A stretch of DNA of 38,668 bases from Mycobacteriales bacterium (GTDB lineage Bacteria > Actinomycetota > Actinomycetes > JAFAQI01). Where the stretch lies: the NCBI GenBank assembly GCA_035504215.1, contig DATJSI010000095.1, positions 1 to 38,668 on the forward strand, written 5' to 3'. This document shows, one piece after another, positions 8,046-34,661 of the stretch. Position numbers and translations under genes: made by a program. The notes under the pieces are model-generated. The model saw nothing but the letters and a program-made list of their open reading frames with translations. It searched no databases and had not been told where the DNA came from. Each line of letters opens with the position of its first letter. Position 1 is the first letter of the stretch.

Positions 8046-8130
8046 CCCCACGCATGGCCCATAGGTGGTGCTGCACCCCCACGCATGGCCCATGGGTGGG
8101 GCCATAGGCCCCTGCATGGGCCATTGGCAC
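8046..8130. repeat. palindromic repeat array A (3 units)
   Basis: Three copies of the core ATGG-S-CCAT are centred at 8058, 8089 and 8120, exactly 31 bp apart, with centre bases C, C and G. The first two are flanked by CCCCAC on the left and GTGGTG or GTGGGG on the right, so each forms a near-perfect 25-bp palindrome. The linker at 8096-8113 can fold as GGGGCC with GGCCCC. The array begins immediately after the DUF4233 stop codon. The 110 bp after it, up to the AbiEi-like gene, show nothing clear. Confidence 0.85.
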
Positions 8131-8242: not shown

Positions 8243-8893
8243 ATGGACAACGCGATGTCGGAGATCCTCAGCCGGCAGGACCACGTCATCACCCGACGCC
8301 AGGCCCTGGAGCTGATGTCGCTGGACGCGCTCAGGCATCGTCTCGGTGGACCCTGGCAGATCATGCTTCCCGGCGTGTATCTGGCCCAGACCGGATCGCC
8401 CTCGCGGCGTCAGCGGCTGCGGGCAGCCCTGCTGTACGGCGGGTCGTCCGCACAGCTGGCGGACGCGACGGCACTGCATGCCTACGGCGTTCGCTACCTC
8501 CCGCCGGACCCAACCGTGCGGGTGTTGCTCGCGGCCGAGGCGAAGCGCGCCAACCGCGATGGTGTCGTCGTTCGCCGTACTCATCGAAGGCCGCAGCCTC
8601 GCATCATCGACGGTCTGCCCCACTGTCCGCCCGAGCGGGCGTTGGTTGAGTTTGCGGCGCGGGTGGGTGAGCGCCGGGTTGCGACCGCCGTGGTCGCGGA
8701 TGCGGTGCAGCGAGGCCTCGCATCCCTCGACCGGATGACGATGGAGGTCGTTCACGTCACTGGTCGCGGTGCCGGGATCGCGCGACTCGCCGTGGGAGAT
8801 GTCGTCGGTGGTGCGCGGTCGGCTCCCGGCTCGCCGGGCGCGGTCTTCCACCAGGCGTTGTGCTGCTCCGCGCGGATCCCGATGGCCCATTAG
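8243..8893 (+). CDS. AbiEi-like antitoxin-domain protein, C-terminally truncated
   Basis: The N-terminal 60 residues ([20 protein letters not shown], then [16 protein letters not shown]) match the winged-helix domain of the large actinobacterial AbiEi/DUF559 family. They are followed by the usual ALLYGG...TALHAYG region and [13 protein letters not shown]. Full-length members continue for about 80-100 residues into a DUF559 nuclease-like domain. This one stops at residue 216: its last codons, reading MAH, are the core of repeat array B, followed at once by TAG. So it appears to be cut off at the array and may be a decaying gene. No partner toxin is next to it. The ATG at 8243 is tentative; I see no clear Shine-Dalgarno, and the ATG at 8255 is an alternative. 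Confidence 0.6.
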
Positions 8894-8960
8894 TGGGGCG
8901 ATAGCCCCACCAATGGGCCATGCGTGGGGCTGGAGCCCCACCAATGGGCCATGCGTGGGC
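8882..8960. repeat. palindromic repeat array B (3 units)
   Basis: Cores are centred at 8886 (ATGGCCCAT), 8917 and 8948 (ATGGGCCAT), spaced 31 and 31 bp. The linkers GTGGGGCGATAGCCCCAC and GTGGGGCTGGAGCCCCAC are 18-nt hairpins with 7- and 8-bp stems. The first core is the last coding segment of the AbiEi-like gene, and the last unit ends 2-3 bp before the -10 box of ndk. Confidence 0.85.
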
Positions 8961-17535: not shown

Positions 17536-17618
17536 GCACGCATGGCCCATCGGTGGGGCTATTGCCCCACGCATGGCCCATAGGTGGGGCTATCGCCCCA
17601 CGGATGGGCCATGCGGAT
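17536..17618. repeat. palindromic repeat array C (3 units)
   Basis: Cores are centred at 17546 and 17577 (ATGGCCCAT) and at 17608 (ATGGGCCAT), each 31 bp apart. The linkers GTGGGGCTATTGCCCCAC and GTGGGGCTATCGCCCCAC are perfect 7-bp stems with 4-base loops. The array fills the gap between the TIGR03960 gene and its DUF2344 partner, and the AT that ends the last core supplies the start of the ATG at 17611. Confidence 0.88.
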
Positions 17619-23872: not shown

Positions 23873-24991
23873 ATGAGCAGGGACGTCGTCGCGAGCGCCG
23901 AACGGATCGTCGTCAAGGTCGGCTCGTCGTCACTCGCCCACGAGAAGGGCGGGATCGACGTCGAGCGGCTCGACCGCCTGGTCGACGCGATCGCGGGTCG
24001 GGTGGCGGGTGGTACCCAGGTCGTGCTGGTGTCCTCGGGTGCGATCGCGGCCGGGCTCGAGCCGCTCGGACTGGCCAACCGCCCACGCGACCTCGCGACC
24101 CAGCAGGCCGCGGCGAGCGTCGGTCAGGGCATGCTGGTCGCCCGCTACAGCGCGGCGTTTGCGCGCCACGCGCTCACCGTCGGCCAGGTGCTGCTCACCG
24201 CCGACGACGTCGTACGTCGCGCTCACTACCGCAACGCGGCGCGCACGTTCGAGCGGCTGCTCGGCCTTGGCATCGTGCCGGTCGTCAACGAGAACGACAC
24301 GGTGGCGACCGAGGAGATTCGCTTCGGGGACAACGACCGGTTGGCTGCCCTCGTCACACACATCGTCAACGCGGGCGCGTTGGTTTTGCTCTCCGACGTC
24401 GATGGCGTCTACGACACCGACCCGGCGCACGGCCCGGCCCGCCGCGTGAGCGACGTGCGGGACGGCGCCGATCTCGCCCAGGTGCGGCTCGGGAAGGCCG
24501 GCCGGCGAGGGGTGGGCAGCGGCGGGATGGCGACGAAGGTGGCCGCCGCGCAGATCGCCGCCGGGGCCGGCGTCCCGACGCTCCTGGCGCACGCGGACCA
24601 GGCTGCGGCGGCGCTGGAGGGCGCCGACGTGGGGACGTGTTTCCACCCAACCGGCCGCCGCGCCCCTGCGCGGCTGCTGTGGCTCGCGCACGCGACGAAC
24701 GCCCGCGGCAGCGTCCGGCTCGATCCGGGAGCGGTGGCGGCCGTCGTCGAGCGGCGTACCTCGCTGTTGCCGGCGGGGATCGTGGCGGTCGAGGGAGAGT
24801 TCTCGGCCGGCGACCCGGTTGACCTGCTCGACCCGGCCGGGTTCGCGGTGGCCCGCGGGCTAGTGGCGTACGACGCCGACGAGCTGCCCGCGTTGCTCGG
24901 GCGCTCGACCCGCGAGCTGGGCGAGACGCTGGGTGCGGCGTACTCCCGCGAGGTCGTGCATCGCGACGACCTGGTCATCCTCGACCCCTGA
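23873..24991 (+). CDS. proB: glutamate 5-kinase
   Basis: First enzyme of proline synthesis: phosphorylates glutamate. From the ATG at 23873 it has 372 residues: an amino-acid kinase domain (IVVKVGSSSLA at 11-21, VNENDTVATEEIRFGDND with the substrate loop, and SGGMATKVAAA), then a C-terminal PUA domain from about 275. The start lies 16 bp after obgE, so the two are likely cotranscribed; the longer frame overlapping obgE is rejected. The product feeds ProA, encoded 0.8 kb downstream beyond repeat array D and a PNPOx-like gene. Confidence 0.94.
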   Translation: MSRDVVASAERIVVKVGSSSLAHEKGGIDVERLDRLVDAIAGRVAGGTQVVLVSSGAIAAGLEPLGLANRPRDLATQQAAASVGQGMLVARYSAAFARHALTVGQVLLTADDVVRRAHYRNAARTFERLLGLGIVPVVNENDTVATEEIRFGDNDRLAALVTHIVNAGALVLLSDVDGVYDTDPAHGPARRVSDVRDGADLAQVRLGKAGRRGVGSGGMATKVAAAQIAAGAGVPTLLAHADQAAAALEGADVGTCFHPTGRRAPARLLWLAHATNARGSVRLDPGAVAAVVERRTSLLPAGIVAVEGEFSAGDPVDLLDPAGFAVARGLVAYDADELPALLGRSTRELGETLGAAYSREVVHRDDLVILDP

Positions 24992-25002
24992 CCGCCATAC
25001 GA

Positions 25003-25280
25003 CACCCATGGCCCATCGGTGTCGCCAGGGCGGCACGCATGGCCCATAGGTGTCGCGCGGCGTCGCACCCATGGCCCATGGGTGTCGCGCGGCGTCGCAC
25101 GCATGGCCCATCGGTGTCGCGCGGCGTCGCACGCATGGCCCATGGGTGTCGCGCGGCGTCGCACCCATGGCCCATCGGTGTCGCGCGGCGTCACACCCAT
25201 GGCCCATCGGTGTCGCCAGGGCGGCACGCATGGCCCATCGGTGTCTCGACGGCGCCGCCCCTATGGGCCATCGGTGGGGC
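25003..25280. repeat. palindromic repeat array D (9 units)
   Basis: The largest array fills the 342-bp gap between proB and the PNPOx-like gene. Cores are centred at 25012, 25043, 25075, 25107, 25139, 25171, 25203, 25234 and 25267 (spacing 31, 32, 32, 32, 32, 32, 31, 33). The first eight are ATGGCCCAT and the last ATGGGCCAT. Linkers are of two types: GTGTCGCCAGGGCGGCAC (18 nt, an 8-bp stem with one T-G pair) at both ends, and a 19-nt GTGTCGCGCGGCGTCGCAC form in the middle, one of them with a TCACAC variant. The high identity of the inner units points to recent unit duplication. Confidence 0.9.
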
Positions 25281-25333: not shown

Positions 25334-25810
25334 ATGGATGTTGCCGGCCGCCCGCCGATGGCAGCGGGATACGGGATCGCGACCGACGCCGAGGGGATGC
25401 TGCCGTTCGACTGGGCTGAGCAGCGGCTGACCGAGTCGCGCAACTACTGGGTCTGCACCACCCGCGCCGACGGCCGCCCCCACGCGATGCCGGTCTGGGG
25501 CCTCTGGCTCGACGGAGCCGTTTTCTTCTCGACCGATCCCGGGTCGGTCAAGGGCCGCAACCTTGCCGCTCGGCCCGACGCGGTCGTCCACCTGGAAAGC
25601 GGCGACGAGCTGGTCCTCGCCGAGGGTCGCGTCGAACGCATCTCGGGCGCGGAGGTGCCGGCCGAGTTCGCCGACCGGTACGACGAGAAGTACGGCCACC
25701 GCATCGATCTCGCCGACCCGTCATTCGCGTGCTACCGGTTGCGCCCGGATCGCGTCATCGCCTGGCGAGAGAAGGACTTCCCGACGTCGGCGACGGCGTA
25801 CTCGCCGTAA
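25334..25810 (+). CDS. pyridoxamine 5'-phosphate oxidase-like flavin/F420-binding protein
   Basis: Single-domain split-barrel protein of 158 residues. The segments NYWVCTTRADGRPHAMPVWG (about 37-56) and FFSTDPGSVKGRNLAARPDAV (about 64-84) are typical of the PNPOx-like family, whose members bind FMN or F420 and reduce varied substrates; the substrate here cannot be told. The ATG at 25334 follows a close -10 box, and earlier in-frame ATGs lie in repeat array D. The TAA stop forms the first half of the proA -10 box. Confidence 0.8.
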   Translation: MDVAGRPPMAAGYGIATDAEGMLPFDWAEQRLTESRNYWVCTTRADGRPHAMPVWGLWLDGAVFFSTDPGSVKGRNLAARPDAVVHLESGDELVLAEGRVERISGAEVPAEFADRYDEKYGHRIDLADPSFACYRLRPDRVIAWREKDFPTSATAYSP

Positions 25811-27093: not shown

Positions 27094-27240
27094 ACACGCA
27101 TGGCCCACCGGTGCGCTCTGACCCCACGCATGGCCCATCGGTGGTGCTCTGATCCCACGCATGGCCCATCGGTGGTGCCATCACCCCACCTATGGGCCAC
27201 CGGTGGTGCTATCACCCCACCTATGGGCCATGCGTGGGGG
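27094..27240. repeat. palindromic repeat array E (5 units)
   Basis: Cores are centred at 27104, 27134, 27165 (left type, the first reading ATGGCCCAC), 27196 (ATGGGCCAC) and 27227 (ATGGGCCAT), spaced 30, 31, 31 and 31 bp. The right-hand linkers GTGGTGCCATCACCCCAC and GTGGTGCTATCACCCCAC can form GGTG-CACC stems; the left ones fold poorly, so this array is more degraded. It lies between the convergent proA and PRC-barrel genes. Confidence 0.85.
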
Positions 27241-34585: not shown

Positions 34586-34661
34586 GGGGCTGTGGCGCAG
34601 CTGGTAGCGCACTTGCATGGCATGCAAGGGGTCAGGGGTTCGAGTCCCCTCAGCTCCACCA
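34586..34661 (+). tRNA. tRNA-Ala (anticodon GGC)
   Basis: A 76-nt cloverleaf with encoded CCA. The acceptor GGGGCTG pairs with CAGCTCC and includes the G3-T70 wobble that identifies alanine tRNAs. The anticodon stem CTTGC/GCAAG encloses loop ATGGCAT, giving anticodon GGC. The T arm is AGGGG-TTCGAGT-CCCCT. TAGACT at 34568-34573 is a plausible -10 box. The insertion sequence starts 4 bp after the CCA end, and the tRNA is intact because the 8-bp target duplication begins with its last four bases. Confidence 0.97.

Follow-up and report, generated by a model that had tools for sequence, protein, structure and literature searches.

A RAYT-less family of palindromic repeat arrays at gene ends in an actinobacterial genome

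Array D, a run of tandem palindromic units directly behind proB, is best explained as a copy of a genome-specific family of REPIN/BIME-like gene-end palindromes that lacks a RAYT and probably serves to terminate transcription in both directions or as a barrier at the 3' end, a reading to which we assign a probability of roughly 0.55. It was analyzed within the window, the whole 38,668-nt stretch of DNA that makes up contig C95 of its source genome, G000 (a 3.47-Mb draft, in 150 contigs, of an uncultured actinobacterium). The repeat in this genome is palindromic, 31–32 bp long, and present in about 35 arrays located just 3' of genes. The repeats themselves, their positions, their polarity, the empty site in a relative and the fold were observed or computed. 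A sequence-only reading of the same DNA had proposed instead that selection acts on an RNA hairpin formed by the linker between cores, and such a selected hairpin in G000 is not supported by the results described below.

Array D and the repeat family of the source genome

Array D occupies positions 25,003–25,276 of the plus strand and begins 11 bp 3' of the stop codon of proB (23,873–24,991, +), which codes for glutamate 5-kinase with AA_kinase and PUA domains. A PNPOx-like gene lies downstream (25,334–25,810, +). The array consists of nine tandem units that carry the core CACNCATGGCCCATNGGTG at spacings of 31, 32, 32, 32, 32, 32, 31 and 33 bp. The centre base of the core is C in units 1–8 and G in unit 9, and this last unit (25,258–25,276) is assigned to the minus strand, with its inverted centre reading ATGGGCCAT on the plus strand. 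Linker 1 (25,019–25,036, +) is GTGTCGCCAGGGCGGCAC, which is self-complementary over 7 bp and recurs as linker 7 (25,210–25,227, +). Folded alone, this linker forms 7 bp, one of them U-G, around a 4-nt loop at -11.1 kcal/mol. Linkers 2–6 (25,050–25,196, +) are 19 nt long, comprising four copies of GTGTCGCGCGGCGTCGCAC and one variant, GTGTCGCGCGGCGTCACAC. They form imperfect hairpins whose stem contains a C-C mismatch (-6.6 to -11.0 kcal/mol). Units 2–6 are near-identical, and this stretch probably represents recently amplified units.

The window contains 21 ATGGSCCAT cores (0.1 expected), and related arrays on its plus strand are located at 8049–8129 (three units with centres C C G), 8877–8957 (three units, C G G), 17,537–17,617 (three units, C C G) and, after proA, 27,095–27,236 (five units, C C C G G). 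The sole Rfam match in the window is a tRNA gene at 34,586–34,658; matches of the arrays in the Rfam search fell far below gathering cut-offs, and no family could be assigned. Two other identities were considered and rejected. A protein-coding repeat is incompatible with spacings of 31 and 32 bp, which break frame, and with the location of the arrays between called genes; CRISPR is incompatible with linkers that are common within and between arrays rather than unique.

Exact 14-mer matches to the core number 74 in G000 and 18 in G002 (Frankiaceae bacterium CP_BM_RX_R9_1), a genome from the same family and another genus. If up to two mismatches are allowed, G000 yields 134–138 matches per strand. 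Across the examined loci, G000 has 35 arrays and G002 has 12; the arrays are extragenic, situated between called genes. Oriented by its central C, the unit reads CACGC-ATGGCCCAT-NGGTG, in which TGGCCC is invariant, and the core is conserved far more strongly than the linker. Core-to-core spacing is 31 bp in 73 cases and 32 bp in 27 cases in G000, and 31 bp in 37 cases and 30 bp in six cases in G002. The symmetric order of spacings in array D (31, five times 32, 31) was evaluated as a general rule and fails in other long arrays. Two further arrays with near-identical units, about 1.2 kb apart at positions 140,437–141,667 of contig C50 and outside the set of 35, were also noted. In addition, two long one-direction arrays with mostly alternating 31- and 32-bp spacing lie at the start of contig C37 (L035, 4–431) and at the end of C146 (L052, 4859–5161). 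They have the look of a single array, at least 24 units long, that was split by assembly and that, if joined, would sit between divergent genes.

Gene ends and the predicted fold

Genes were called with a codon-usage-based caller written for this analysis. Among the 35 arrays of G000, 10 lie between convergent genes, 20 between codirectional genes and two between divergent genes, with three more at contig ends; the corresponding numbers for the 12 arrays of G002 are seven, four, zero and one. Expressed as the share of gaps that carry an array, convergent and divergent gaps differ in both G000 (10 of 25 vs 2 of 34, p=0.002) and G002 (7 of 10 vs 0 of 15, p=0.0002). Between codirectional genes, the array is found at a median of 10.5 bp after the stop codon and 89 bp before the next start. 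No U-tract is present downstream from the arrays (T fraction 0.135, compared with a background of 0.152), and actinobacterial terminators often have none (PMC8355165).

The orthologous proB 3' site carries no array in G002, where the order proB-PNPOx-proA is kept, or in the other readable genomes of the family. Unrelated palindromes fill the same gene end in different genera: the proB 3' end of G004 (L196) holds a different repeat of about 80 bp in direct and inverted copies, and that of G008 (L194) a long near-perfect hairpin.

Considered as RNA, array D has a predicted folding energy of -195.9 kcal/mol (z = -6.0 relative to dinucleotide shuffles). Prediction favors a single extended rod: unit i is matched with unit n+1-i, and each linker with the one opposite. 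Over all arrays, the predicted pairs comprise about 450 between cores, 453 from a linker to another linker and 202 within linkers, and linker hairpins that stand alone are mostly found at the rod tip or in short arrays. The earlier idea that a linker hairpin and a core-centred hairpin compete thus captures only part of the picture, because the whole-array rod, which is the dominant predicted fold, is missing from it.

The centre bases carry a consistent polarity, running from C to G in 26 of the 35 G000 arrays and from G to C in none. In arrays of two to six units, the change of centre base falls close to the middle, with the patterns CG (six arrays), CCG (nine) and CGG (five) as well as CCGG, CCCGG and CCCGGG. 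This mid-array switch and the 26:0 polarity are what would be expected of an inverted-repeat element expanded by duplication. Long arrays (9–14 units) are mostly uniform in their centre base, as expected from slippage.

From these observations we infer the role at transcript 3' ends, the order of events and the manner of dispersal. The founding unit was probably an inverted core pair, ATGGCCCAT ... ATGGGCCAT, which together with a short self-complementary linker would constitute a REPIN/BIME-like hairpin. Such a hairpin would land, or be retained, directly 3' of stop codons, and tandem slippage would then enlarge the element into arrays, as may have happened with units 2–6 of array D. At the transcribed 3' end of proB, array D would most likely fold into a rod that helps to end transcription, shields the mRNA 3' end, or does both, and an element that is nearly its own reverse complement could serve both genes of a convergent pair. 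Within the rod each linker would have to match only its opposite linker, so self-complementary linkers would follow from the inverted-repeat architecture and need not be separate switches.

Pairing and covariation of the linkers

The hairpin proposed for array D was described as a kept feature with an 8-bp stem. The linker on which this was based, GTGTCGCCAGGGCGGCAC, is indeed present and folds, but an eighth pair is impossible because it would leave a loop of 2 nt. Moreover, only two of the eight linkers of array D have this sequence; five contain the C-C mismatch, and the last one, linker 8, lacks its CAC end. Perfect stems had also been reported for other arrays. Stems of 7 bp formed by GGG-type linkers do occur at 8882–8952 and 17,542–17,612, but the linkers at 8049–8129 and 27,095–27,236 are imperfect. 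Because most linkers of array D and those of two arrays in the window deviate in this way, the original observation rests on a selected linker. Retention of the GTG and CAC ends, likewise put forward, is broken in linker 8, and these ends are part of the core, which leaves only four stem pairs that are specific to the linker. Across the genome, all seven positions pair in 15 of the 68 distinct 22-nt linkers and in one of 27 23-nt linkers.

The covariation test that the sequence-only reading called for was carried out with a symmetric fixed stem and one linker per array, and with 3' halves permuted between arrays. Linker self-complementarity in G000 is slightly above chance overall: native linkers form 3.08 of the four pairs, compared with 2.71 in chimeras, and a fraction of 0.004 of the permutations scored at least as high. 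The excess comes entirely from pair 6/17 (0.98 vs 0.61 when shuffled), and pairs 7/16, 8/15 and 9/14 show none over shuffled linkers when one linker is taken per array. In a count over 64 rows, the covariation score is 0.174, which 0 of 500 shuffles reached, compared with 0.092 +/- 0.015 for the shuffles, with two-sided changes at only two pairs. In alignment A1, 34 of the 64 rows do not pair at 16/25. When linkers are divided by the base at position 6 into a G-type (GTGGGGC...) and a T-type (GTGTCGC...), no pair within either class exceeds expectation, observed values being equal to or lower than expected. The compensatory difference therefore comes down to one switch that separates two lineages of linkers, and the outcome in G000 speaks mostly against selection on linker folding. 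In G002, linkers pair less well than chimeras (2.92 vs 3.92 of seven pairs), with a mean MFE of -2.1 compared with -4.0.

A T-G pair in the stem had been taken as a hint of an RNA fold. In sense orientation, codirectional arrays have seven G-U cells and eight A-C cells, so an RNA-specific excess of wobble pairs is not seen and the hint does not hold. Furthermore, template switching during replication creates and maintains perfect stems and gives rise to multi-base compensatory changes (PMC8794818), which means that compensatory changes in a stem need not reflect selection. What endures of the original proposal is the overall self-complementarity above chance and the strong stem covariation of two-unit elements from other actinobacteria.

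Relatives, known systems and competing explanations

Within the family of G000, G001 has one two-unit array, and the remaining nine genomes have none. In the sample of the class, G056 is the only genome outside the family with any elements of this kind. Arrays in G002 are nearly all one-directional and are without inverted halves or folding linkers, with core and spacing kept, and only one flanking gene pair is common to array loci of G000 and G002, which gives no sign that arrays are maintained at orthologous sites in the two genomes. G002 also contains a higher-order repeat of about 150 bp (L056, 4828–5365) in which several core units alternate with a different palindromic block, CTCGATCGCCGAGCCGCGCGAAGCGGGCGC.

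Pairs of ATGGSCCAT boxes 29–32 bp apart were sought across 84,980 species genomes, and many of the matches listed are due to chance. The repeated families among the matches listed are those of Rhodococcus triatomae, R. spelaei, Rhodococcus sp. RD6.2 and KRD197, Labedaea rhizosphaerae, Streptosporangiales Dino_bin12 and Actinomycetes DX2.bin50, with 4–11 copies per genome, again among the matches listed, in the form of two-unit inverted elements. Of the elements examined, 23 lie between convergent, 12 between codirectional and one between divergent genes. When six of these genomes were searched with any spacing of 17–47 bp permitted, the boxes were exactly 30 bp apart in 41 of 42 pairs. The boxes are invariant by design of the search; in the linkers, every pair covaries, with 97 two-sided cells where 28 are expected and a covariation score of 0.398 where 0.103 is expected. 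Template switching without selection could also be the source of this strong signal (PMC8794818). No two-box elements occur in three nearby genomes from the genus of RD6.2. The box common to these scattered genomes may stem from a shared ancestor, from transfer or from chance resemblance within a large number of palindrome families. Three Nocardia species (L122, L145, L161) carry a near-identical CACCGATGGCCCATGGCCGCGAG...CTCGCCGCCATGGGCCAT element with 32-bp spacing that is probably an orthologous site.

REPINs of Pseudomonas fluorescens SBW25 are REP doublets that form hairpins, and like the present arrays they have two conserved palindromic ends in inverted order, occur in tandem clusters and are extragenic (PMC3116915). 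Their spacer is conserved in length and in its capacity to form a hairpin, with compensatory changes, and they fold as a hairpin or a "clover" (PMC3116915). Inverted conserved ends that form a hairpin are found in G000, as polarity and rod indicate, and linker length is constrained; compensation is strong in other actinobacteria, amounts to one class switch in G000 and is absent from G002. The cores are 30–31 bp apart rather than the 71 bp of GI REPINs (PMC3116915), and unlike REPINs the family has a clear gene-end bias and, in G000 and G002, long arrays in one direction. Mobilization by a RAYT was rejected because the Y1_Tnp domain (PF01797) had no match in any of 16 genomes, including nearly all carriers, under conditions in which control genomes matched as expected.

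The REP/BIME elements of E. coli are imperfect palindromes that are intergenic, mostly near 3' ends, and clustered with short linkers. The arrays resemble them in being imperfect palindromes clustered at gene 3' ends with short linkers, but differ in sequence and in their shorter unit. Their units are also mostly direct tandem copies that invert once around the centre of the array, whereas those of E. coli strictly alternate. The GTAG- and CGTC-tagged REP superfamilies are likewise small repeated extragenic palindromes (PMC3733652), but neither tag is enriched near array edges (GTAG in four of 34 arrays, about 11% expected; CGTC in six of 34, about 43% expected). Clustered-hairpin terminators in M. 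tuberculosis and Streptomyces are located within tens of bases of the stop codon and often lack a U-tract (PMC8355165). The arrays are similarly hairpins shortly 3' of stop codons with no U-tract, but they belong to a dispersed, sequence-conserved repeat family, and their part in termination is putative. Searches of the literature for the repeat sequence, for Rhodococcus or other actinobacterial REPs, for actinobacterial REPINs and for bidirectional terminators returned nothing relevant.

Several observations weigh against a terminator. No U-tract follows the arrays; no excess of G-U over A-C points to action as RNA rather than as DNA; at least two arrays lie between divergent genes; and in G002, core and spacing are kept in arrays that lack both folding linkers and inverted halves. 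A terminator also does not need a fixed spacing of about three helical turns, whereas protein binding on DNA could explain it. Indeed, it is conceivable, at a clearly lower probability than the terminator, that the cores are sites for a DNA-binding or transposition protein set about three helical turns apart, and that linker palindromes matter as cruciforms or single-strand hairpins in mobility rather than as RNA. The near-fixed spacing in G000, G002 and the six other genomes, a core with invariant TGGCCC far better conserved than the linker, and the missing G-U bias all agree with this, but the arrays strongly prefer gene ends over divergent promoter regions, and with Y1_Tnp absent from 16 of 16 genomes a mobilizer was not found.

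A purely neutral origin seems slightly less probable again. Template switching would perfect the palindromes, slippage would grow the arrays, and functionless insertions would be tolerated behind genes, where they do least harm. The documented ability of template switching to make and maintain stems with multi-base compensation (PMC8794818) fits this account, as do arrays that are lineage-specific and missing at the orthologous site in relatives. Yet core identity and spacing are held much tighter than the linker, many linker mismatches persist, so that correction would be incomplete, and tolerance alone could produce the gene-end bias but not the C...G polarity. The linker hairpin as a selected RNA structure that competes with a core-centred one is the least probable of these explanations. 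The overall covariation in the 64-row count and the strongly covarying elements of other actinobacteria speak for it; against it stand a G000 signal confined to one pair and one class switch with nothing inside the classes, the frequently unpaired 16/25, the non-folding linkers of G002 and the rod as preferred fold.

Beyond G000, we suggest only tentatively that a bipartite element at gene ends is common to scattered lineages of actinobacteria. It would consist of two ATGGSCCAT boxes 30–31 bp (about three helical turns) apart and a drifting linker that keeps its pairing, and a non-RAYT factor would spread or recognize it; G000 would then be a lineage in which it has expanded into tandem arrays. 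The linker results also call for caution, because compensatory-looking changes between paralogous repeats may reflect one class switch or template switching. Hairpin repeats of the REPIN type usually go together with RAYT transposases. A RAYT-less family of like anatomy that recurs in several actinobacterial orders, with one shared 9-bp box at a near-fixed spacing, would mean that there is another route of dissemination or recognition.
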